A stretch of 37,454 nucleotides of DNA from the NCBI GenBank assembly GCA_950054195.1, contig CATLPG010000028.1, forward strand, positions 1 through 37,454. The letters run 5' to 3'. Below, piece by piece: positions 4,456 through 19,448 of the stretch. A program made the translations under genes and the position numbers. The notes beneath the pieces were generated by a model. It was not told where the DNA came from. It made no database searches and saw nothing but the letters and a program-made list of their open reading frames with translations. Each line of letters opens with the position of its first letter. The first letter of the stretch is position 1. This DNA comes from an uncultured Saccharospirillaceae bacterium (GTDB lineage Bacteria; Bacteroidota; Bacteroidia; Flavobacteriales_D; CAJJDF01).

Positions 4456-5013
4456 ATGTCTACAAAAAATCAAATAGATACTTCACAATGGGTTGATCAA
4501 TACTCAGATGCTTTGTTTGGCTATGCTTATTATCGGTTGAATGATAGAGAGCTTGCTTACGACTATGTACAGGAAACCTTTTATTCTGCCTTAAAGGCCC
4601 TTGATAGGTTTGAGCAAAAAAGTTCAGTTAAAACCTGGTTGTTTTCTATCTTGAAAAGAAAAATCATTGATTATTGGAGACAACAAGAAGCCAGAAAAAC
4701 AAAAGCAGTTTCAAAAATTGTTTCGAATCAAGATCAAGATACTAGCTGGGTGGAATATGTTACTGCTAAGAACGATAGACCAGAGGTTGAGATAGAAATT
4801 GAGAACAGTGAATTAAGGTCAGCTTTAATGAGTTGTATTTCTGGATTACCAGAAAAATGGAAAGCAGTATTCGTAGATAAATATATAGATGAGAAAGATT
4901 CAGAAGAAATTTGTAATGAACATAATATCACATCGTCCAATTTTTGGGTAATCATTCATAGAGCCAAGGCAAGGCTTCAAGGGTGTATGAAAGAAAATTG
5001 GTTAAATAATTAG
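4456..5013 (+). CDS. ECF-type RNA polymerase sigma factor
   Basis: A 185-residue group 4 sigma-70 protein. Region 2 covers about residues 14-76: YAYYRLNDRELAYDYVQETF, then VKTWLFSILKRKIIDYWR for -10 recognition and melting. Region 4 covers about 119-178, with SGLPEKWKAVF and the helix-turn-helix ending in SNFWVIIHRAKARLQ. The SSNFWVIIHRA signature belongs to an ECF group often paired with a very small zinc-binding partner, and such a gene follows 2 bases downstream. It directly follows mazG without a gap, so it is probably read through from the upstream operon. The regulon cannot be inferred. Confidence 0.93.
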   Translation: MSTKNQIDTSQWVDQYSDALFGYAYYRLNDRELAYDYVQETFYSALKALDRFEQKSSVKTWLFSILKRKIIDYWRQQEARKTKAVSKIVSNQDQDTSWVEYVTAKNDRPEVEIEIENSELRSALMSCISGLPEKWKAVFVDKYIDEKDSEEICNEHNITSSNFWVIIHRAKARLQGCMKENWLNN

Positions 5014-5015
5014 TT

Positions 5016-5246
5016 ATGATAAGTTGTGAGAAGGCAGCAAAAATAATGGATCAAAGAGACTTTAAACAGTTATCGTTTAAGGAAAAATTCTTAATGAAGT
5101 TCCATAATTTGCATTGTAAGGGATGTCGTGTTTATGATAAATTGTCAAAAAGATTGTATAAACTGATAGAAAAAGAAAAGTCAAATCCACCTGCGCTTAG
5201 TTCGTCTGAAAAAGATCAGCTTAAAAAACAGTTGTTGAAGGATTAA
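5016..5246 (+). CDS. Small soluble zinc-binding anti-sigma factor candidate (ZAS motif)
   Basis: A 76-residue basic protein with no membrane segment. Cys4 near the N-terminus and the sequence HNLHCKGC at about residues 31-38 form the HxxxCxxC arrangement of zinc-binding anti-sigma (ZAS) domains such as RsrA and ChrR. It starts 2 bases after the ECF sigma gene, the standard arrangement of sigma/anti-sigma pairs. A cytoplasmic ZAS protein suggests a redox or metal signal sensed in the cytoplasm. That is inference from family and position. The last 26 bases overlap the 3' end of the convergent acetyltransferase gene. Confidence 0.8.
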   Translation: MISCEKAAKIMDQRDFKQLSFKEKFLMKFHNLHCKGCRVYDKLSKRLYKLIEKEKSNPPALSSSEKDQLKKQLLKD

Positions 5247-7516: not shown

Positions 7517-7704
7517 CTGAACCTTTGGGCAGAATATGTTATTTATAATTTAATCTGTTTTAACGAAAATCATCCGGGTCAACACTTATCAAAATCACAG
7601 TTGTTTCGTTAAAATCTCTAGTTAATATAACGATTATAAGCAACTAAATCTTACACGCTATCGTTAATATTTTGTAATTTGTTGATATAAATTTCATTTT
7701 AAAT

Positions 7705-9933
7705 ATGAGAATAGTCGTTTTAATCAGTTTTCTAATCAGTTTTGTATTGGATGGATTTACTCAAATTCCATTTTACAGAAACAATGATATACCCGTTTCG
7801 AAAGGTTCATTAATAGCTTCTGGATGGTCTGGTGGTCTTCATGCTCCGCAATTTTCCACGATGGATTTGAATGGAGACGCAATTGAAGATTTAGTCGTTT
7901 TTGATCGAGCAGATGATAAATTATTAACCTTCATTAATGAAGGAACTCCCAACCAATCAGACTATAGATACGATAGTCAATACGAGGAGTTTTTCCCTAC
8001 CATGCAAAATTGGACATTACTTCGAGATTACGATGGTGATGGGAAAAAAGACATTTTTACTTCAACTAATATTGGAATTAAAGTTTTTAAAAATACATCA
8101 TCAGGAAGTAATTTACAGTTTGATTTGGTTAAGCCTGTTATTATTTCTTATCAAGGGTTTACTTCGGTTTACGACTCAACCAAGCTTTTTAATCTTTATG
8201 TATCTTCAGTTGATATTCCGTCTATAAGCGATATCGATGGGGACGGTGATTTGGATGTGCTCACTTTTGGTGTATTAGGCGCTTATATCGAGTATCACAA
8301 AAACATGAGTATAGAAAATTATGGTCATCAAGATAGCCTATATTTTGAAATGAAAAATACTTGTTGGGGATATTTCTCCGAGACTGGTGTAAATAGCAAC
8401 AAGTTAGTTCTTAACGATACTTGCTCATTTAATGTGTATCAACCCCAGGTAAGGCATGCAGGTAGTACCATGCTTGCATATGATAGTGATGGTAATGATA
8501 TTAGCGATTTATTAATAGGAGATGTTTCCTTTAGGAATGTAGTTTTAGCCCAACATGGGGGATCTTTGCCAATTAGTAGTTTAGCAATAACTGCTCAAGA
8601 TACCATATTTCCTTCCTATGATGTACCGGTTGATTTAGAGCTTTTTCCTGCTATGTTTATGGAAGATTTAGATAATGATGGTAAAAAAGATTTAGTATTT
8701 TCTCCCAACGTAGAAACACTAAGTGAAAACACAACAAGTGCTCATTTTTATAAAAATGTAGGAACTAGCTCAATCCCTAGTTTTCAATATGTAAAAAATA
8801 ACTTTTTGCAAGATGAATCTATTGAAGCAGGAGAAATTAGTAATGTAACTTTTTTTGATCATAACGGAGATGGCTTGCAAGATATGATTGTATCATCTTT
8901 TGGTTTTTTTGATAAAACAACCATTTCTCATGAATCAAAAATGGTCTTGTATGAGAACACAGGCACATTATCTAATCCTCAGTTTACAGAAGCAAATACC
9001 GATTATGGTAATTTTTCTGGGTTGAGTTTAGGTTTAGCTTTATTCCCTACGTTTGGAGATATCGATGGGGATTTAGATATGGATTTAATTTTAGGTGACA
9101 TTGACGGTAACCTTCATTTGTTAACGAATACAGCGGGTGTTGGTAACACGGCATCATTTACATTAACACAACAAAATTTACAAGATGATAGTTCTCAGGT
9201 AATTGATGTGGGGCAATTTGCTGCTCCTCAACTGTACGACTATGATAAAGATGGGGATTTAGATTTAATCATTGGGGAGAAAAATGGATTATTGAGCTAT
9301 TATGAAAATAGAGGAAATAGTACAAGTTATTCCTTCCATTTCGTAACAGATACAATGGGAGGACTACAAATAAAAGAACCTTGGGATGTTAATGGAACTT
9401 CTACAGGATATTCAGTGCCACACTTTTTCTCTTACCAAGGTGCAGATTATGCTATGGTTGGTGGTCAACAAGGGCAGGGGATCTTATTCAGTAATATTGA
9501 TTCTAATGATCCACTTAATGAGTTTACTCCAAGCGATACAATCATTAGCAAAAAAGAAATAGGGTTATATCTCTCACCTTTTTTAATAGATATTGATAAC
9601 GACAATGACCTAGATATTTTTGCAGGTAACCGTAGAGGAGGAGTTGTTTGTTATTATGGAGGTACTAATACAGTTGGAATAAAATCTGTAACGAAAGAAG
9701 TAAAACTAAATATTTTTCCTAATCCATCAAGTGATTTAGTAACTATCTCAATGACACAGCAGGTTCCAAATAGCTCTATTCGATTGTTTTCAACTGATGG
9801 AAAAATAATCCATACACAATTAGCTAACCAAATAAATACACTGGATGTTTCTCACTTATCTAAAGGAATTTATTTTGTTGAACTTGCAACTAATCAAAAA
9901 CGCATAGCAATTAAAAAATTAATTGTTCAGTAA
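7705..9933 (+). CDS. FG-GAP/VCBS repeat protein with T9SS type A sorting domain
   Basis: A 742-residue secreted protein. Residues 1-20 are a signal peptide ending near GFTQ. The body contains about nine calcium-loop motifs of the DxDxDG type typical of FG-GAP/VCBS beta-propeller blades, for example DYDGDGKKD, DIDGDGDLD, DLDNDGKKD, DYDKDGDLD and DIDNDNDLD. The final ~75 residues form a type A sorting domain: LNIFPNPSSD, the IRLFSTDGK strand, GIYFVEL, and a short KKLIVQ end. It should be exported by Sec, moved across the outer membrane by the T9SS and attached to or released from the surface. The next gene starts 5 bases downstream, although that gene is cytoplasmic. Confidence 0.93.
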   Translation: MRIVVLISFLISFVLDGFTQIPFYRNNDIPVSKGSLIASGWSGGLHAPQFSTMDLNGDAIEDLVVFDRADDKLLTFINEGTPNQSDYRYDSQYEEFFPTMQNWTLLRDYDGDGKKDIFTSTNIGIKVFKNTSSGSNLQFDLVKPVIISYQGFTSVYDSTKLFNLYVSSVDIPSISDIDGDGDLDVLTFGVLGAYIEYHKNMSIENYGHQDSLYFEMKNTCWGYFSETGVNSNKLVLNDTCSFNVYQPQVRHAGSTMLAYDSDGNDISDLLIGDVSFRNVVLAQHGGSLPISSLAITAQDTIFPSYDVPVDLELFPAMFMEDLDNDGKKDLVFSPNVETLSENTTSAHFYKNVGTSSIPSFQYVKNNFLQDESIEAGEISNVTFFDHNGDGLQDMIVSSFGFFDKTTISHESKMVLYENTGTLSNPQFTEANTDYGNFSGLSLGLALFPTFGDIDGDLDMDLILGDIDGNLHLLTNTAGVGNTASFTLTQQNLQDDSSQVIDVGQFAAPQLYDYDKDGDLDLIIGEKNGLLSYYENRGNSTSYSFHFVTDTMGGLQIKEPWDVNGTSTGYSVPHFFSYQGADYAMVGGQQGQGILFSNIDSNDPLNEFTPSDTIISKKEIGLYLSPFLIDIDNDNDLDIFAGNRRGGVVCYYGGTNTVGIKSVTKEVKLNIFPNPSSDLVTISMTQQVPNSSIRLFSTDGKIIHTQLANQINTLDVSHLSKGIYFVELATNQKRIAIKKLIVQ

Positions 9934-11168: not shown

Positions 11169-12503
11169 ATGGAACCTCCGAGTATTGAGCCTCTGTCGGG
11201 GCTTTTAATCACATTTAACTCAGTAGATACTTCTATCATTGTTGCCATTGTAATCATGGCTATATTACTAATGAGCTCTGCACTAATTTCAGGGTCTGAA
11301 GTAGCATTTTTCTCTTTATCTCCATCCGATAGGGACACTTTAAATAGTGAAAAAGATAATGCTTCTGATCGGGTGTTGGGATTGTTAAATCGACCAAAAC
11401 GGTTGTTAGCTAATATTCTTATAGCAAATAACTTTATCAATGTAGGTATTGTTATCATTTCAACTTATCTAGTTGGGAACTTAATGGAGTTTGAAAAAGG
11501 GGAAAAATTTCTAGAAATTCTTATTACAGTTGTTGGTGTAACTTTCCTAATCCTACTCGTAGGAGAGGTTATTCCTAAAGTTTATGCAGCAAATAATAGC
11601 ATGCAATTAGCAAAATTCATGTCTTTCCCGTTAATTGTAACAGGTAAAGTGTTTTCTCCTTTGAGTGAGCTCTTGGTTAGAAGTACGTCATTTATCGATA
11701 AGCGAATAAAAAAGAAAGGAACAGATATTTCTGTAACCGATTTAGAGGAAGCACTTGAGATAACAGAGATCGAAGATGTATCAGATGATGATAAACGTAT
11801 TCTAGAGGGGATAGTTAAGTTTGGAAATACAGATGTAAAGCAAATCATGAAATCTAGAATTGATGTAATTGCCTACGATATCTCAACTCCTTACGATGAA
11901 TTATTAAAAGAAATTATTGAAAGTGGGTATTCTAGAATACCTATTTATATGGAATCTTTCGATCAAGTAGAAGGAGTTTTATACGTTAAAGATTTGCTTC
12001 CTCACTTAAACGAAAAAGAGAATTTCGACTGGACAAAGCTCATGCGAGCACCATTTTTTGTTCCAGAAATGAAAAAGATTGATGATTTATTAAAGCAATT
12101 TCAGGAGTCGAATATCCACATAGCAATCGTGGTAGATGAATACGGAGGAACATCTGGAATAGTTACACTCGAAGATATTATCGAAGAAATTATAGGAGAA
12201 ATCACAGATGAATTTGATGATGATGACTTGATTTATAGTAAGCTAGATGATCATAATTATGTTTTTGAAGGGAAAATATCTTTAATTGATATGTACAAAG
12301 TACTTGATATTGATGGTGATATTTTTGAAGAAAATAAAGGAGAATCAGATACATTAGCCGGGTTTTTGATTGAGCAATCTGGGAAAATAATGTTGAAGAA
12401 TGAGAAACTAAACTTTGAGAATTATACGTTTGTAGTAGAAGCAGCAGATAAACGAAGAATAAAGCAAATTAAAGTAACGATAAATGAGCGTGTGGAAGAA
12501 TAA
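11169..12503 (+). CDS. gldE: Gliding motility-associated protein GldE (CNNM/CBS family)
   Basis: A 444-residue membrane protein of the CNNM/CorC (TlyC-like hemolysin) family. Hydrophobic segments at about residues 22-48, 80-103, 116-137 and 150-170 form the membrane domain. Two CBS domains follow at about 225-280 (RIPIYMESFDQVEGV...KDLL) and 295-345 (IAIVVDEYGGTSGIVTLEDI), then a CorC/HlyC C-terminal domain from about 360. In Flavobacterium johnsoniae GldE supports GldD and gliding. The family also includes magnesium exporters, so ion transport remains possible. The last 20 bases overlap the gldD start, so the two are translationally coupled. Confidence 0.93.
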   Translation: MEPPSIEPLSGLLITFNSVDTSIIVAIVIMAILLMSSALISGSEVAFFSLSPSDRDTLNSEKDNASDRVLGLLNRPKRLLANILIANNFINVGIVIISTYLVGNLMEFEKGEKFLEILITVVGVTFLILLVGEVIPKVYAANNSMQLAKFMSFPLIVTGKVFSPLSELLVRSTSFIDKRIKKKGTDISVTDLEEALEITEIEDVSDDDKRILEGIVKFGNTDVKQIMKSRIDVIAYDISTPYDELLKEIIESGYSRIPIYMESFDQVEGVLYVKDLLPHLNEKENFDWTKLMRAPFFVPEMKKIDDLLKQFQESNIHIAIVVDEYGGTSGIVTLEDIIEEIIGEITDEFDDDDLIYSKLDDHNYVFEGKISLIDMYKVLDIDGDIFEENKGESDTLAGFLIEQSGKIMLKNEKLNFENYTFVVEAADKRRIKQIKVTINERVEE

Positions 12504-13083
12504 ACAGTTTTTTGTGATCTTATTGGTTGGAGTACTTGTTTCATGTAATAGCGAAGCCCCGTATTTCCCAAAACCTTTAGGCTACCATCGTGTTGCTTTA
12601 CCAGATCATGAATATACCAAAGAATTCAATCAACCCGATTGTCCATTTACGTATAAATATTCTAATCAGGCTTTTGTAGTGCCTAGTCAAGAAAACAGTT
12701 GCAACCATAATTTGTTTTATCCAAGGTATAAGGCTACACTGTATGCCTCTTATGTTCAACTAGATCAAACCAATGATAAAAATAATTTATTTTATCACAC
12801 AGAATCATCTAGAAACCTTGTGTATGAGCATACGATTAAAGCAGATAAAATAGAGGAAACACTTGTTGAGAATGATTCAACAGGGGTTTATGGCGTTACG
12901 TATGATATTGCTGGTAACGTAGCAAGTAACTATCAATTTTTCTTAACTGATACTACAGATCATTTTTTTAGAGCTGCCCTATATTTTGAAACTACTCCAA
13001 ATATTGATTCGATCCAACCTATCCTAGACTATATAAAAGTTGATCTAGAAGAAATGGTAGAGACTTTTGAGTGGAAGAAATAA
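12484..13083 (+). CDS. gldD: Gliding motility lipoprotein GldD
   Basis: A 199-residue lipoprotein. The signal reaches LVGVLVSC, with the lipidated Cys at about residue 21. The signature APYFPKPLGYHRVALPDHEY directly after the lipobox matches GldD proteins (PKPxGYxRIxLP). GldD is required for gliding and works with GldE in Flavobacterium. Its biochemical role is unknown. Position after ssb-gldE with a 20-base overlap supports the assignment. Confidence 0.93.
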   Translation: MSVWKNKQFFVILLVGVLVSCNSEAPYFPKPLGYHRVALPDHEYTKEFNQPDCPFTYKYSNQAFVVPSQENSCNHNLFYPRYKATLYASYVQLDQTNDKNNLFYHTESSRNLVYEHTIKADKIEETLVENDSTGVYGVTYDIAGNVASNYQFFLTDTTDHFFRAALYFETTPNIDSIQPILDYIKVDLEEMVETFEWKK

Positions 13084-13818: not shown

Positions 13819-14124
13819 TTAAATAATTTTCCGATGATTTTTGATACAGTTTAGAAGCAGTCTGTAAATTAAAACATAGGTTGTTGAAACAATAATAACT
13901 GACAGAACTAAAACTGCTGTATTTGTTAAGGCTGTGTGTTTTGTAAGAAAGTGTATCAGCCAAAAAACAGGTATTGCCAATGGTTGTAGTATATCGCTTA
14001 AAATTGTGAGAAAACCATTCGTTACAAAGCCTTCTGATTTTGATATTATAGTTAGTGTAGTTAAGCCTAGCAAAAACATTACACCAATAATCAACACTAA
14101 GTTGAATAATGTTCTGTTAATCAT
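13819..14124 (-). CDS. Small membrane protein of unknown function
   Basis: A 101-residue hydrophobic protein with about three predicted membrane helices: LFNLVLIIGVMFLLGL, then a segment around ILQPLAIPVFWLIHFL, then TAVLVLSVIIVSTTYVLIY. The C-terminus is basic (NCIKNHRKII), fitting a cytoplasmic end. It begins 34 bases downstream of the large type B cargo gene on the same strand, so it may be the last gene of that operon. No family is recognised. An overlapping plus-strand frame at 13934-14149 looks less protein-like. Confidence 0.55.
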   Translation of the reverse strand: MINRTLFNLVLIIGVMFLLGLTTLTIISKSEGFVTNGFLTILSDILQPLAIPVFWLIHFLTKHTALTNTAVLVLSVIIVSTTYVLIYRLLLNCIKNHRKII

Positions 14125-14158
14125 GAAATTAGACGCTTTAAACCCCTGAAAGATTTAT

Positions 14159-16804
14159 TTACCTAAACAAAGTAATATGCCCTGTCATTTTTTGGTTTTT
14201 GGTATCGTCTAACTCCTTAAACCTAATAAGGAATGAATAAATACCCATTGGAGCAGGAGAACCATCTTTTAATCGACCATTCCATTTGTAATCTAACTCC
14301 ATATCATCCGATTCACTAACGATATTACCCCAACGATCAAATATATAAACATTATATTCAATCAAATCACTGTTTGTTAAAACTGGATAAAAGAAATCGT
14401 TTGCATTATCTCCATTAGGAGTAAACGAATTAGGCACAAAAATACTAAGGAAGTTCTTTACAGTTACGTCCTTTGAAACAGTATCCGCACAGCCACCTTC
14501 ATTATAAGTAATTAGCGTGTTTGTATACGTGCCTCCAAAGGTTGTAGGAAACTCATAAATTGGATTCTCGCTAGAATCTATTGCTAGCGTATCAAAAAAC
14601 CAAATGTACTGTAAGCTATCATTTCCTGAACCAGTTGAGAGATTAGTAAAAGTAACTTGTGTTTGAGGCACAACAGGCTCAAATGGATTAAATGTAAAAT
14701 TAGCCGTAGGATAGTTATATGCACATACAAAACTTGGGAAGATAGAATCGACTGTACATCCTTCAGGACTAGTTAGTGTAACAATTATGTCATAACAACC
14801 TACACTAGTGTAACCATGTACTGGAGCTGCCTCAGAGTCTATTTCAGTTCCATCACCTAGGTTCCATGTAATATCAGAAAACTGAGTCATGTCACTCAAA
14901 TTAGCAAAGGTTACTTCGTTTGGAATACAAACTGTATCATTATCAACACCAATGTCTATCGTATTAATAAGTGAGTAATATAATACATTAATTGTGTCTG
15001 GATAACTTTGGCATCCATTAACGTCTTCCGTCAGGGCGTAACTATATACCCCAGTATCTAATGCTTTCACTATTGGGGTATGAATAAGCGAATCATCAAA
15101 TTCGAACGATCCATTTCCGCTAATTGTAGACCATACAGGGTCTATGCCTTTAACTTCAGGATTCAATTGAATTTGCATTAAACAAGTGGTTGTATCGTTT
15201 CCAGCAAACGATTGTGGACGATCTTTCACATATATAGATATTGTCGTATCATGCGCACAACCAAAATCGTCTTGTACCTTAAACACATATGAATATTTAC
15301 CAGAATCTGCAGGTGAAACAATAATTGTTGAGTCATTAGGATTATCGACTATTGTTGGGGTAGGATCCCAAGCCATAGCTATTACTTGAGGAATAACCGT
15401 TTGAGCACTGGTATCTGTCATAATAATTTCATTGAATGTAATTCCCCATTCGAAGACAAAACCATCATCAATACCCAAGTTATCTGTAATTTCAATTGTC
15501 CAAGGACCGTTTAGAGGACAACCAGTTAAAAGTAGGTCGTAATTTTCTTCAGGAAGATAACTCCCAGAAGGTAAGTAATCTTCATTTGTATAATTGTTAC
15601 CTAAAGCATCTGTAAAATTTTGTTGATAATTACCTGCCTCACCAACCATCGTTCCGAAATTGTTATTGTTTTGGCTAAAGCCATACAAATAACCAACTCC
15701 AGGTACTCCATTATTGGCAGTTACATCAACTGGTTCTCCTAAATATGTTCCACCACCTCCAGGATATCCTTTAAGGATGGCTTCTTGTCCATTCGGACAA
15801 ATAATTTTAATTTCTAAATCACCTAAAAAAGAGTGTTCCATACTAGAGAAAAACTCTTCAATAAAGCCAGGCTCATACGTAGTTCCAGGATCAAAAATAT
15901 TAATATTTAAGGACGAGGTATATGATTGTCCACTACCATCAGGTAAGTTTATTGTATCACCAACATCTAGAGAAGGAAGTGTTAATTCTGTAGGTTGAGG
16001 AGATATTGTAATTGTTACAGAATCATCCAAACAGATGGTGTCATTATCAGTAAAAACTAAGTCAGAGAAAGTAGGAGGTAATCCAGCACTAACAATTCCA
16101 GCTTTAACAGTATCTGAACAGCCTTCTATATCTTCTACTATTAAATACAAGCCACTTCTTCTCGGAGAGTTATAAGTTATGTTTACTGATTGTCCATCGG
16201 TTTTAAATCCACCACCTGAGAACCAAGTGAATGTTGAGGTAGCAGCTGATTGAGCGTAATAAGTGTTGTTTTCAGGGAAGGCAACATTAGCAGTTGCTTG
16301 AACCGAATCACCCAAACAAATTTGAATAGAATTTTCTGGACCTGTTGGGGTTGGTGTTACTGAAGAAACGGTTGCATCAACCGCTTGGCAAGGAGCTTGG
16401 CAATCAAATGTGGCTTCCCATCCTGGATCTGCAATAATGAAATCGCTATAAAATTCAAAAGTTAAGCAACCTCCAGTTCCTTCAATAGTTTCACCATTTA
16501 ATTCGGTGCCACTAAAGCATCCAATTAAGGGAGCACCAGTTGTGTTACCATCATAGATACATAAATCATCATATCCACTTTCTGTATCAAACGAGTTAAA
16601 TATAACCGACATAGTAAACCCTGGGTTTGAAGAACAAACCGTATATGTTAATGTTGTGTCGACTGCATAGTCGTTTCCAATACCTCCATCATCATAGAAA
16701 TCACCAGAACAGGTAGATATTGATCCATTAGTCATGATATAGGTTTGTGAATAAAAAGAAAGATTAACTAGTAAAGCCAATCCTGTAATAAGTAAATGTC
16801 TCAT
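14159..16804 (-). CDS. CUB/P-domain/PKD surface protein with T9SS type B (gliding-associated) C-terminal domain
   Basis: An 881-residue secreted multidomain protein. Signal peptide 1-20 (LLVNLSFYSQ). Residues 22-135 form a CUB-like domain with paired cysteines (STCSGDFYDDGG, YDDLCIYDGN). Residues ~290-460 resemble a proprotein-convertase P-domain (HSFLGDLEIKIICPNG, GPWTIEITDN, GFVFEWGITF). Ig/PKD-like domains follow, the clearest with WNLGDG near 647-652. The last ~90 residues are a gliding-motility-associated C-terminal domain: PNSFTPNGDNANDFF at 791-805, then YIFDRWG and PMGIYSFLIR. Type B domains target proteins through the T9SS to the cell surface. Its start overlaps the preceding gene's end by 4 bases (ATGA). 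It shares the PKD-plus-CTD architecture with the membrane-anchored protein upstream. Confidence 0.92.
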   Translation of the reverse strand: MRHLLITGLALLVNLSFYSQTYIMTNGSISTCSGDFYDDGGIGNDYAVDTTLTYTVCSSNPGFTMSVIFNSFDTESGYDDLCIYDGNTTGAPLIGCFSGTELNGETIEGTGGCLTFEFYSDFIIADPGWEATFDCQAPCQAVDATVSSVTPTPTGPENSIQICLGDSVQATANVAFPENNTYYAQSAATSTFTWFSGGGFKTDGQSVNITYNSPRRSGLYLIVEDIEGCSDTVKAGIVSAGLPPTFSDLVFTDNDTICLDDSVTITISPQPTELTLPSLDVGDTINLPDGSGQSYTSSLNINIFDPGTTYEPGFIEEFFSSMEHSFLGDLEIKIICPNGQEAILKGYPGGGGTYLGEPVDVTANNGVPGVGYLYGFSQNNNNFGTMVGEAGNYQQNFTDALGNNYTNEDYLPSGSYLPEENYDLLLTGCPLNGPWTIEITDNLGIDDGFVFEWGITFNEIIMTDTSAQTVIPQVIAMAWDPTPTIVDNPNDSTIIVSPADSGKYSYVFKVQDDFGCAHDTTISIYVKDRPQSFAGNDTTTCLMQIQLNPEVKGIDPVWSTISGNGSFEFDDSLIHTPIVKALDTGVYSYALTEDVNGCQSYPDTINVLYYSLINTIDIGVDNDTVCIPNEVTFANLSDMTQFSDITWNLGDGTEIDSEAAPVHGYTSVGCYDIIVTLTSPEGCTVDSIFPSFVCAYNYPTANFTFNPFEPVVPQTQVTFTNLSTGSGNDSLQYIWFFDTLAIDSSENPIYEFPTTFGGTYTNTLITYNEGGCADTVSKDVTVKNFLSIFVPNSFTPNGDNANDFFYPVLTNSDLIEYNVYIFDRWGNIVSESDDMELDYKWNGRLKDGSPAPMGIYSFLIRFKELDDTKNQKMTGHITLFR

Positions 16805-17232
16805 TTCTTTGCGATGGCTTTGTGCGAATATAATGTAAATAAGTAATTAGAGTTCTCTAAACGATAGGTAATGCTGTTGTTAACATCCCTTTGAACGTTC
16901 AACAATAAAATATTAAATGATCCATCTTCAATTTCTTGGACCATTTCTTCAGTAGAAACTTGTATCATTGAGTGGTCAGCAGGGTTTCTCTTTTCAATTT
17001 TAGCCAAAACAGGAAAGCTATTGCTCTTTAATTTTTTGGCATCAACTTTTTCGAGCTTATATGAGCGATATACTACATTTTTATAGTGAGCATTAAGTTG
17101 CTCATTATTTAAAATGCGTTCTACTCTGCCAGGGGCATATATTTCGTTTAGTTTATTTTCAAAATCCTGATCCGTTTGGCTAAAACTAACCATGGACAGC
17201 ACACTGAAAAGTATACTTATTATTAATTTCAT
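16801..17232 (-). CDS. Small exported protein of unknown function
   Basis: A 143-residue protein with a signal peptide (MKLIISILFSVLSMVSFSQ). The mature part is hydrophilic and mixed alpha/beta, for example GRVERILNNEQLNAHYKN, SFPVLAKIEKR and SFNILLLNVQRDV. I recognise no domain. It overlaps the type B cargo gene by 4 bases and lies 74 bases downstream of the anti-sigma-like gene. A periplasmic partner, chaperone or co-secreted protein for the 881-residue protein is possible, but this is inference from position. Confidence 0.78.
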   Translation of the reverse strand: MKLIISILFSVLSMVSFSQTDQDFENKLNEIYAPGRVERILNNEQLNAHYKNVVYRSYKLEKVDAKKLKSNSFPVLAKIEKRNPADHSMIQVSTEEMVQEIEDGSFNILLLNVQRDVNNSITYRLENSNYLFTLYSHKAIAKK

Positions 17233-17306
17233 ATTAAATTTTAATTAATTTTTTAGTAAACCTCTAAAATAAGAAAATTAGAGCTACTAGCGGAAGTATT
17301 TGACTA

Positions 17307-18680
17307 TTAATTTGATCCAGCTGTTACAGTACCGAGGTAAACTTCTGGATTACCTAATTCATTCACAAATTCTAATTTCCAAACGTATACTTCATTAAGG
17401 CGAACCATTTTTCCTTCCATATCTCTACCTTTCCATCCATTGTCAATAGATGAACTAACAAAGATTGGCTTACCAGATCGATCAATAACAGTGAATTTAA
17501 CTTTTTGAGTTAGGTTATTATTGATCATAGTTTGTTTTAAATCTAGTGGGAAAAATTCATCATTCAACCCATTACCGTCTGGGATAAATGGCCAGTCAGC
17601 TTTATAATTGTAATATGAGCCAACATCCACATAATCTGTTTTTGTAAACACACAACCTGCATAATTCTTAGCAACCATAGTAACAGTATACTTGCCTCGG
17701 TTATTATATGTGTGTTGAGAAGACAATTCGTTTGAGCTTGTACCATCTCCAAAATTCCATGTTACTTCTTTAACTTCCCTATTAAGCGTAAAAATATGGT
17801 TGTTTTTGATGGTACTCTTATCCTTGATAGGATCAAAAGTTACTGATTGATAAAATTCAGTGTTTTTAGTTATTTCTTTTGATTCATCACCTTTTCTATG
17901 CTTAACAACTAATGTAATGTTGTTTTGACCTTCAACTAATTTTATGTTTTTGAGTGATTTTTCCTTACTAATAACGACACCATTCTTTAACCAAGAATAC
18001 TGAAAGTCATTCTCATTTAACGAACTAGAGAGCATTGGTGTTACACTAATCCTATCGCCCTCACAATACGTGTTTTTAAGATCAAAATCTATAGTAAAGT
18101 CATCATAGTCTACGATGTTTTGTTGTGGAACAACTTCATCATTATTACTATTCTCAGTTACATTTTTTTCATCGGTTGTGCTAGTTTGTACAGCCGCAGG
18201 TTTTGAATCTTCATTTAGTGACTCAGTATTGTTTTCAGAGATACTAGCTACATCTTTTTCAGAAGCAACTTCATCGTTTGTTTTTGTTCCCTCATTAGAA
18301 ACTACAACATCTACAGGTTCAGTTACTGAATTGTTGGGAGTATCTTGAGTTATGTTACTCGTATTTTCTTTTACCTCCTCCTCAGCATTATTTGTAATAG
18401 CTTTATTATCTACTACTTTGTTGTTTTTAGTAGGAGTTTTGGCTTCTGTTTGGTTACTAGCTATTGGTTTTGTTATAGTTGAGTCGCTATTAGGTAGAGT
18501 TAAGTATACTCCTCCAGCAATAGCAGCAACAACAGCTGCAGAAACAAACCATTTTGATTTATAAAAAGGATTGTTTAACTGCTTGCTAACAGCATCCCAA
18601 GAGGCAGGATTGTAAGGCTCCTCATGGTTTTCTAGTGATGCTTTAACAAAAGACTCAAATTGATCTAAATTCTTATCCAT
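17307..18680 (-). CDS. Membrane-anchored anti-sigma-like protein with external PKD and degenerate T9SS type B-like C-terminal domain
   Basis: A 457-residue protein with an unusual layout. Residues 1-43 are charged and cytoplasmic, with a short helix ending NPASWDAVSKQL that resembles N-termini of Bacteroidota anti-sigma proteins. One membrane segment spans about 44-61 (WFVSAAVVAAIAGGVYL). Residues 65-190 are an Asn/Thr/Glu/Ser-rich spacer. A first Ig-like domain (~195-275) and a PKD domain (~280-353, WNFGDG at 308-313) follow. Residues 360-453 resemble the gliding-associated C-terminal domain, but the usual PNxFTPNGDGxND is altered to PFIPDGNGLND. The ECF sigma gene lies 81 bases upstream on the same strand. 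There is no cleavable signal peptide, so it is probably not secreted. Role as regulator is inferred from context. Confidence 0.8.
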   Translation of the reverse strand: MDKNLDQFESFVKASLENHEEPYNPASWDAVSKQLNNPFYKSKWFVSAAVVAAIAGGVYLTLPNSDSTITKPIASNQTEAKTPTKNNKVVDNKAITNNAEEEVKENTSNITQDTPNNSVTEPVDVVVSNEGTKTNDEVASEKDVASISENNTESLNEDSKPAAVQTSTTDEKNVTENSNNDEVVPQQNIVDYDDFTIDFDLKNTYCEGDRISVTPMLSSSLNENDFQYSWLKNGVVISKEKSLKNIKLVEGQNNITLVVKHRKGDESKEITKNTEFYQSVTFDPIKDKSTIKNNHIFTLNREVKEVTWNFGDGTSSNELSSQHTYNNRGKYTVTMVAKNYAGCVFTKTDYVDVGSYYNYKADWPFIPDGNGLNDEFFPLDLKQTMINNNLTQKVKFTVIDRSGKPIFVSSSIDNGWKGRDMEGKMVRLNEVYVWKLEFVNELGNPEVYLGTVTAGSN

Positions 18681-18761
18681 CTTTATTTATTTAAATCCTA
18701 AAAAGGATATTATTTACCGACATTTCTGTCGAGTTCATTCATTTTTATTTTTTCATCTTCA

Positions 18762-19322
18762 TCAAGCGATGTTAAATCTAGCTTGCAAAATGGTTTTCAT
18801 TTTTGCTTTTGCTTTCGCATAGTTTGATTTTGATGTTCCTATATTAATATCTAAGATTTCAGCAATTTCTTGATGAGTGAAATTTTCAATAGCATAGAGA
18901 TTAAAAACTGTTTTATAAGCAGGAGATAATTCCTCCATGGCTTCTAAAATATCGTCTGATTTAATATTCCCATATGTGCTATCTTCTGGTTCTTCATCAT
19001 ATGAATCATCTTTAATATTGCCTTCGTCTTCTAAATTAAATTTGTTTTTATTTTTTCTGTAATGGTCGATAGCTGTGTTAACAAAAATTCGTCTTACCCA
19101 ACCTTCTATCGATCCTGTTACTTCATATCTATATAAATTTTCAAACACTTTTATAAAACCTTCTTGAACGATATCTTCAGCTTCATCTCCATCACGAGCA
19201 TATCGTTTGCAAATAGCTTTCATTTTACCATAGAAGTACTTGAAAAACTCTTGCTGGCTTTTACGCTTTCTTTTCGCACATCCTTGAATAATATCATTCA
19301 GTTCTTCTTTGGTCAAATTCAT
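18762..19322 (-). CDS. ECF-type RNA polymerase sigma factor
   Basis: A 186-residue sigma-70 family protein. Region 2 covers about residues 24-91: FFKYFYGKMKAICKRYARD, DIVQEGFIKVFENL, and GWVRRIFVNTAIDHYRK. Region 4 covers about 126-180: MEELSPAYKTVFNLYAIE, then the helix-turn-helix HQEIAEILDINIGTSKSNYAKAK. The SKSNYAKAK-type recognition helix is common in Bacteroidota ECF factors paired with membrane anti-sigma proteins. It heads a minus-strand locus with the membrane protein next to it and is divergent from mdh across 126 bases that must hold both promoters. It is unrelated in detail to the ECF factor at 4456-5013. Confidence 0.93.
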   Translation of the reverse strand: MNLTKEELNDIIQGCAKRKRKSQQEFFKYFYGKMKAICKRYARDGDEAEDIVQEGFIKVFENLYRYEVTGSIEGWVRRIFVNTAIDHYRKNKNKFNLEDEGNIKDDSYDEEPEDSTYGNIKSDDILEAMEELSPAYKTVFNLYAIENFTHQEIAEILDINIGTSKSNYAKAKAKMKTILQARFNIA

Positions 19323-19448
19323 GTGTTTTCAATTGTTAAGACGATTCAAAAATATTGAGGTTGCCTGTTAGTCACAATAATTTTAAATTTTATATAAAAT
19401 TCTTATTTTTAATCGATATTAAAAACAATTATTTAAAACCAATCACAC

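Follow-up and report, generated by a model that had tools for sequence, protein, structure and literature searches.

A locus of five minus-strand genes in the window (the whole stretch of 37,454 nucleotides that was analysed) probably encodes an ECF sigma/anti-sigma switch that regulates itself and adjusts the expression of T9SS cargo, which is the best explanation of the data. Control of T9SS cargo genes by the switch is supported by a promoter-like motif. Sensing of the T9SS state would occur through the C-terminal domain (CTD) of the anti-sigma-like protein, and a cell may in this manner rely on its own export tag both to follow export and to tune it. The locus supplies a conserved, putatively autoregulated sigma factor, a definite promoter motif whose target cargo genes can be named, and a sensor in which one domain resembles the export tag. 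With these, the adjustment of T9SS cargo expression to secretion capacity in Bacteroidota other than Porphyromonas gingivalis becomes directly testable.

Gene organization and conservation of the locus

The original prediction described five minus-strand genes separated, from the sigma gene to the gene of 101 aa, by 81, 74, -4 and 34 bases, and the ORF coordinates agree exactly with this layout. The first gene (18762-19322) encodes an ECF sigma factor of 186 aa, which scores 105.6 bits with TIGR02937 (cut-off 42.9) and is also above cut-off with Sigma70_r2 (58.2 bits) and Sigma70_r4_2 (55.0 bits). It is followed by the gene of a membrane-anchored anti-sigma-like sensor of 457 aa (17307-18680; PKD_4 43.4 bits), then by that of a small exported protein of 143 aa (16801-17232), which overlaps the next gene by 4 bases. 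The latter (14159-16804) encodes a T9SS type B cargo of 881 aa with CUB (29 bits), P-domain (P_proprotein, 28.4 bits), PKD and CTD, all above cut-off, the CTD scoring 56 with CHU_C (cut-off 27) and 48.8 with TIGR04131 (cut-off 35). The last gene (13819-14124) encodes a membrane protein of 101 aa with three hydrophobic helices by hydropathy and no family match. No kinase or response regulator is found among the genes of the locus, where the sigma factor is directly followed by the membrane anti-sigma-like protein.

Judged from sequence conservation, the core of the locus is the pair formed by the ECF sigma gene and the sensor gene. This pair is present across the families of the window's order, a distribution which indicates that the pairing is not due to chance. 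Of 150 genomes, most have a best match above 200 bits to an order-wide sigma profile. The best match in the present genome is the gene at 18762-19322 (298.6 bits), and in a phylum sample matches above 220 bits occur only in the window's own order. Because the 101-aa gene is missing at the corresponding place even in the congener (G001, L039), the conserved unit comprises at most four genes, with only two over most of the order; the 101-aa membrane protein probably lies outside it.

Within the window's own family, the sensor, the small protein and the cargo stay together. Orthologues of the 143-aa protein are found in G001, G004, G005 and other f1 genomes, and orthologues of the cargo adjoin the sensor in G001-G005. 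Taken across families, the small exported proteins encoded before the cargo genes do not form one homologous set, as they belong to several unrelated families. The expectation that related genomes would keep the sensor next to both sigma and cargo genes holds in part: the sensor lies beside the sigma gene and often beside a type B cargo gene, but adjacency to cargo is absent in many Crocinitomicaceae/Fluviicola-like genomes, in which the sensor is followed by convergent genes or by mutL. Only 8 of 55 named loci have a recognised type B cargo within three co-directional genes, with 13 others running off the contig. The pair repeatedly has cargos at its side in several families; these are different and unrelated, the adjacent cargos being non-orthologous between families. 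On this comparison of neighbourhoods, cargo adjacency is recurrent and lineage-specific.

The sensor and its relatives

In the AlphaFold model and alignment A3, the sensor comprises two helices (residues 7-18 and 25-36), a membrane helix (~44-62), a disordered tether (~63-185) and, distally, an Ig/PKD domain (~196-290), a PKD domain (~276-357) and a type B-like CTD (~358-457). Hydropathy gives a hydrophobic segment at residues 44-62. In the tether, pLDDT is mostly below 50 (~61-180), and the median tether length in 55 sensors is 122 aa. Neither a Pfam match nor a Sec signal peptide is found at the N-terminus, where a helical cytoplasmic part precedes the membrane segment, which begins at residue 44. 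Foldseek/VIA retrieved general PKD/Ig folds (PKD Z about 11), and the CTD (358-457) matched only an Ig-like domain of C5a peptidase with a Z of 8.3, which says little.

The sensor and the cargo had been proposed to share PKD and C-terminal domains. Both carry PKD; the sensor CTD of this genome falls under the curated cut-offs (CHU_C 18.6 bits versus 27; TIGR04131 14.1 versus 35) and is recognised mainly through its orthologues. The CTD fold and the W/G positions 50 and 52 are retained in 65 of 66 sensors. The RWG tryptophan, present in 92 of 98 cargos, is found in one of the 66 sensors; given this loss and the divergence of the sensor CTD, docking in the manner of cargo is not assured. That the sensor is itself an ordinary T9SS cargo can be rejected, as it has no signal peptide, its CTD is under cut-off and RWG is lost.

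Relatives of the same sigma factor are paired with other modules. At four loci (L222, L227, L234 and L244), the same N-terminus is found with an OMP barrel (PF13568); the window's sensor has no beta-barrel, and PKD and CTD stand in its place. At L189, the anti-sigma is fused to PorP/SprF (PF11751, 1.5e-21), which is known as a receptor of type B CTDs, and followed by a CTD protein, while at L208 and L211 a short anti-sigma precedes PorP/SprF. In the window's own genome, which encodes about 20 PorP/SprF proteins, a sigma gene is followed by that of a TM-tether-PorP/SprF protein (C35). By analogy with PorP/SprF fused to or beside these related anti-sigmas, we infer that the sensor may report the state of the secretion route.

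Promoter-like motif and predicted regulon

Of 78 sigma orthologues, 71 have the motif GGCAACC-N14/15-CGT(C/T) 5' of the gene, compared with 1 on the opposite strand and a mean of 0.14 after shuffling. In the window, an exact match, GGCAACC-N15-CGTC, lies at 19340-19365 on the minus strand. The motif may represent an autoregulated sigma promoter with an AAC-type -35 and a CGT-type -10 element. In this genome it is not shared by ECF genes in general, since among about 15 ECF genes only that at 18762-19322 has a site immediately upstream; the match at C33 falls inside the preceding gene.

A search for a shared motif, suggested with the original prediction, succeeded: cargo genes at other places in the genome share the promoter-like motif with the sigma gene. 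Sites were assigned to genes by joining search tables and individual sequence stretches. Among the 64 type B cargo genes of the window's own genome, 9 have a site upstream, compared with 0 on the opposite strand and a mean of 0.35 in shifted windows (Poisson p 2e-13), and 55 have none. Predicted target cargo genes include those at C1, C8, C11, C15 and C16; the nine are not independent, because three of them (C1 twice, C8) are related copies. A second site of the same type within the window, GCAACT-N16-CGTT (7640-7665, plus strand), lies 40 bases 5' of the T9SS cargo gene at 7705-9933, which is of type A (Por_Secre_tail 58.6 bits, FG-GAP). Enrichment of the motif before cargo genes recurs in the congener and in one other family. 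The congener G001 has 14 strict sites versus 0 for the reversed pattern, and its 13 non-sigma sites include six before type B operons and two before type A genes. G051, which has no cargo beside its sensor, has four sites before type B operons (one by coordinates only). Cargo-regulon enrichment is absent in three other sigma-bearing genomes (G037, G044 and G019). In the sigma-less genus g24, two genomes with 36 type B places contain three strict sites, none of them upstream of type B, a pattern that agrees with the sigma-cargo model in a sample too small for proof. Other genes with a site before them are lipoprotein genes, ribD, the genes of a CAP-domain lipoprotein and of a tail protein with S74 peptidase and, in G019, one that resembles pqiA.

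The idea that the sigma factor drives the adjacent cargo gene is only partly supported. The motif precedes the sigma gene, and a separate cargo promoter in the 74-base gap behind the sensor can be rejected, as neither an ECF site nor a sigma-A -7 box (TAnnTTTG) is present there. The cargo gene at 14159-16804 is not itself preceded by a site, and its transcription would require read-through that starts at the sigma promoter. A weak A+T-rich hairpin in the gap (folded region, -11.5 kcal/mol) makes partial termination possible.

These targets might also belong to an ordinary envelope-stress ECF pair, in which PKD/CTD would be a periplasmic sensor of another signal (cell-wall or outer-membrane damage, or a ligand) and cargo would enter the regulon as surface proteins, with no sensing of the T9SS. 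Sites before the non-cargo genes, the missing RWG tryptophan of the sensor CTD and the lack of a site upstream of the PorP/SprF genes of this genome would suit such a pair. It is nevertheless rather unlikely, considering the retained CTD fold and W/G positions, the strong bias of motif targets to T9SS cargo and the occurrence of PorP/SprF in the same place in related systems. A feedback restricted to the one neighbouring cargo, the genome-wide sites belonging to other ECF factors with similar promoters, is improbable. The cohesion of sensor, small protein and cargo in the window's family and the genomes without a regulon beyond their own operon (several, G037 and G044 among them) could be read in this way, but in this genome the sites have no counterpart immediately upstream of another ECF gene, target cargo genes occur in G051 although no cargo adjoins its sensor, and neighbouring cargos are not orthologous between families. 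That the pair came to lie beside surface-protein genes by historical accident, with the motif as a shared general ECF element, fits the many genomes without adjacency but is very improbable in view of the unrelated cargos that recur in several families and of a motif enrichment that stands against strand and shift controls.

Proposed mechanism and known systems

In the autoregulated switch favored here, gene order and the Dma layout suggest that the N-terminal helices of the sensor would keep the sigma factor bound at the inner membrane. The predicted single membrane helix and tether of ~120 residues would allow PKD-PKD-CTD to reach the outer membrane, where the CTD may dock on a T9SS protein, most likely a PorP/SprF-like barrel; the docked sensor would not be secreted because it is anchored in the inner membrane. 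A change at the dock (free receptor, blocked or idle secretion, or real-cargo displacement) would release the sigma factor. As motif conservation and enrichment suggest, the latter would then transcribe its own operon, with the neighbouring cargo gene if there is one, and other cargo genes via GGCAACC-N15-CGT(C/T) promoters. More tentatively, these proteins could form an anti-sigma family that uses a non-secreted type B sorting domain as an outer-membrane dipstick: the mimic, tethered to the inner membrane, would compete with cargo for PorP/SprF-like receptors, whose occupancy would set cargo transcription order-wide, and related lineages would have fused PorP/SprF itself to the anti-sigma.

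A comparable system, Dma, was reportedly first described in PNAS in 2024. Like Dma, the present system is confined to Bacteroidota and consists of an ECF sigma gene followed by that of a protein with an N-terminal sigma-binding part (here predicted), one TM segment and a long disordered tether (PMC13088901). It differs in its C-terminal module, PKD-PKD-CTD instead of an outer-membrane beta-barrel, and in its predicted regulon, T9SS cargo instead of OMV/PUL genes (PMC13088901). The Dma idea is widened to a tethered anti-sigma layout that ends in a general barrel, PorP/SprF or a T9SS CTD.

In the PorA-PorXY-SigP system of P. gingivalis, as proposed here, an ECF sigma factor over T9SS genes is autoregulated (here by motif) and a CTD-bearing protein feeds the signal (here presumably) (PMC7712824, PMC4800418). 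In P. gingivalis, however, the CTD protein is secreted and exerts its effect on T9SS machinery genes by way of a two-component system, whereas here the CTD lies within an anti-sigma-like protein of the inner membrane and cargo genes are the predicted targets. The SM6 promoters of Flavobacterium psychrophilum are comparable in their ECF-type -10 box with CGT; their targets include the T9SS genes gldN and porU and an ECF/anti-sigma pair (PMC9723704). THC0290_1774/1773 of this species is at most a candidate for orthology. The T9SS targets reported for SM6 are, unlike those predicted here, machinery genes (PMC9723704). PorP-like proteins serve as binding partners of type B CTD proteins (PMC9143113), and binding to such a barrel is proposed for the sensor CTD; unlike the sensor, PorP-held type B CTD proteins are secreted adhesins or caps without a regulatory part.

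Organization and conservation of the sigma-sensor pair

The five minus-strand genes of the locus were found exactly in the predicted order, with spacings of 81, 74, −4 and 34 bases. By domain search, the first (18762-19322) encodes an ECF sigma factor and the fourth (14159-16804) a genuine type B cargo comprising CUB, P-domain, PKD and C-terminal domain (CTD). The second (17307-18680), the presumed sensor, contains PKD domains and matches CHU_C weakly (18.6 bits, cut-off 27; TIGR04131 gives 14.1 bits, cut-off 35). On the plus strand, gldE-like and gldD genes of gliding and type IX secretion (T9SS) are convergent with the locus (11169-13083), and in the congener gldD and the cargo gene are immediate neighbours.

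The anatomy of the sensor is established at the level of prediction. Its AlphaFold model (48 sequences, mean pLDDT 71) comprises helices at residues 7-18 and 25-36, a membrane helix at 47-60, disorder to about 180 and then well-predicted beta domains up to 457, among which residues 276-357 form a PKD fold (Z about 11). No signal peptide was detected in the sensor, and the predicted topology places the N-terminus inside. The tether (median 122 residues in 55 orthologues) could in principle be long enough to span a periplasm. In 65 of 66 sensor CTDs the WDG position retains its W and G while the RWG tryptophan is lost (present in 1 of 66 sensors versus 92 of 98 cargo CTDs), so that the sensor CTD is a separate conserved subfamily and not merely a decayed cargo domain.

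Conservation of the pair is well established. When 60 related genomes were searched for the sensor and 40 neighbourhoods fetched, sigma factor and sensor proved to adjoin in many families of the order, mostly divergent from malate dehydrogenase. The 80 named loci take in Cryomorpha, Fluviicola, Brumimicrobium, Crocinitomix and Vicingaceae; the record names Glaciecola, Polynucleobacter and Kuenenia among them resemble mislabelled bins or records. Of 150 genomes in the order, 148 contain a match (E <= 1e-20) to a profile built from 18 sigma orthologues (A1), most of them scoring about 207 to 304 bits, and no genome outside the order exceeds about 219 bits in a phylum-wide sample of 296. The same search of the order indicates that reduced genomes of genus g24 apparently lack the sigma factor. 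These small genomes (G032, G045, G056 and others) form a natural comparison set, and G032 and G045 have 16-20 type B CTD places each despite the apparent loss.

A promoter-like motif upstream of cargo genes

The sequence GGCAACC-N15-CGTC is located upstream of the sigma gene. The motif precedes 71 of 78 orthologues in the order, with spacers of 15 (57 cases), 14 (13) or 16 bases (1), compared with 1 on the opposite strand and 0.14 in shuffled windows; its shape and place suggest a −35/−10 promoter. None of the other ECF genes of the source genome (about 15 in all) carries it immediately upstream.

In this genome, GCAACY-N15-17-CGTY has 51 matches versus 31 for the reversed pattern. Enrichment before cargo genes is clear: the motif occurs in the upstream window of 9 of the 64 type B genes, with none on the opposite strand and a mean of 0.35 in shifted windows. 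The nine genes (two on contig C1, one each on C8, C11, C15, C16, C19, C30 and C43) start 1-105 bases after the site and represent about seven independent cases, since the three on C1 and C8 are mutually related. They are mostly solitary, without a PorP/SprF neighbour. The motif is absent upstream of all 20 PorP/SprF genes of the genome (L302-L321). A second site in the window, GCAACT-N16-CGTT, lies ahead of a plus-strand gene for a type A T9SS cargo of 742 aa that contains FG-GAP repeats (site plus gene, 7640-9933), a likely further target. Both congeners also have the promoter-like site before ribD, of riboflavin synthesis (G000:C64:6871 and L291 on G001:C72), which would be an unexpected conserved target.

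Other genomes were scanned with the strict motif GCAACC-N15/16-CGTY. The congener G001 has 14 sites and no reversed match; apart from the site of the sigma gene, six lie before type B operons (L282, L284, L286, L287, L289, L294) and two before type A genes (L283, L290). G051, where no cargo adjoins the sensor, has 18 sites versus 29 reversed; one is that of the sigma gene and four precede type B operons, one of these, on its contig C1, being assigned by coordinates. No comparable excess of type B targets was seen in G044, G037 and G019, and a wide regulon is thus supported for the genus itself and G051 only. In two g24 genomes without the sigma factor there are 36 type B places and three sites, none upstream of these places, which is consistent with control of cargo genes by the sigma factor without being decisive.

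The search for a shared promoter motif proposed in the original prediction was therefore positive for cargo genes in the source genome, the congener and one other family. To that extent the proposed self-monitoring secretion circuit is partly supported, whereas the cargo adjacent to the sensor proves to be a lineage-specific addition. The predicted target genes would depend on the sigma factor.

Cargo genes beside the sensor

The source genome (3.27 Mb) has 64 type B CTD places, so a cargo near any given gene is not striking by itself. Within the family (G001-G005), orthologues of the small exported protein (16801-17232) and the cargo follow the sensor. In other families, distinct and far larger CTD proteins stand after the sensor (lengths of 3447 aa in G025, 3761 in G007, 4638 in G015 and 4011 in G016), or else a series of two or three CTD cargos (G044, G036, G040). 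Among 55 named loci, a type B cargo was recognised within three co-directional genes in only 8; another 13 are cut by a contig end. A type A gingipain-like C25 protein follows the sensor in L179 and, in L220, a PKD protein whose CHU_C score exceeds the cut-off; many of the Crocinitomicaceae and Fluviicola-like loci inspected have no cargo beside the sensor. Adjacency thus recurs with unrelated cargos, yet is not general. The fifth gene (101 aa, 13819-14124) is not retained, even in the congener. Directly 5′ of large cargo genes there are repeatedly genes for small exported proteins (110-170 aa) that are unrelated to one another (L282, L295, L296, L298, L299, L045, L046 and others), each forming a two-gene unit with the cargo gene.

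Known systems, related layouts and proposed docking

Dma anti-sigma factors of B. thetaiotaomicron consist of a sigma-binding domain, a membrane helix, a disordered tether and a beta-barrel (PMC13088901); the first three match those of the sensor, as known from sequence and model, and the sensor would likewise act as an anti-sigma factor. In P. gingivalis the CTD protein PorA is coupled to T9SS gene expression via PorY-PorX-SigP (PMC7712824, PMC4800418), and in F. psychrophilum ECF-type SM6 promoters precede gldN, porU and an ECF pair (PMC9723704). The end is similar, but the system described here would take a one-step anti-sigma route and, judged by the motif, target cargo genes more than machinery genes. 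Searches of freely accessible full texts yielded no account of an anti-sigma factor that carries a T9SS CTD or PorP/SprF.

Outside the order, relatives of the sigma factor are paired with proteins that combine the same N-terminal layout with a terminal outer-membrane barrel (L222 of Carboxylicivirga, L227, L234, L244). At L189 (4703-7762), the sigma gene is followed by a 614-aa anti-sigma factor with several N-terminal helical repeats, a membrane helix, a tether and a fused PorP/SprF barrel, and then by a 211-aa CTD lipoprotein-like protein; at L208 and L211 a short anti-sigma gene precedes a PorP/SprF gene. These three loci tie the tethered layout to T9SS, which the sensor would monitor. The source genome itself holds a second T9SS-linked tethered anti-sigma factor: on contig C35 (L323, 2116-4401) an ECF gene precedes that of a 595-aa protein in which an anti-sigma-like N-terminus, a membrane helix and a long tether lead to a C-terminus of PorP/SprF type.

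Type B CTD proteins have PorP-like proteins as their demonstrated partners (PMC9143113), and in the sigma tree sensor type tracks phylogeny with few switches (7 changes versus a shuffled mean of 23.7). Taken together with the Dma layout and the barrel and PorP/SprF relatives, this makes docking of the sensor CTD on a PorP/SprF-like protein our best guess, by analogy.

A third ECF gene of the source genome, on contig C8 (L140), is followed by a Dma-like 456-aa membrane-tether-barrel-like protein and is immediately preceded by a gene for a 404-aa protein resembling type A cargo. A further ECF sigma gene of the window is followed by that of a 76-aa cysteine-containing protein resembling small zinc-type anti-sigma factors (both genes, 4456-5246, plus strand).
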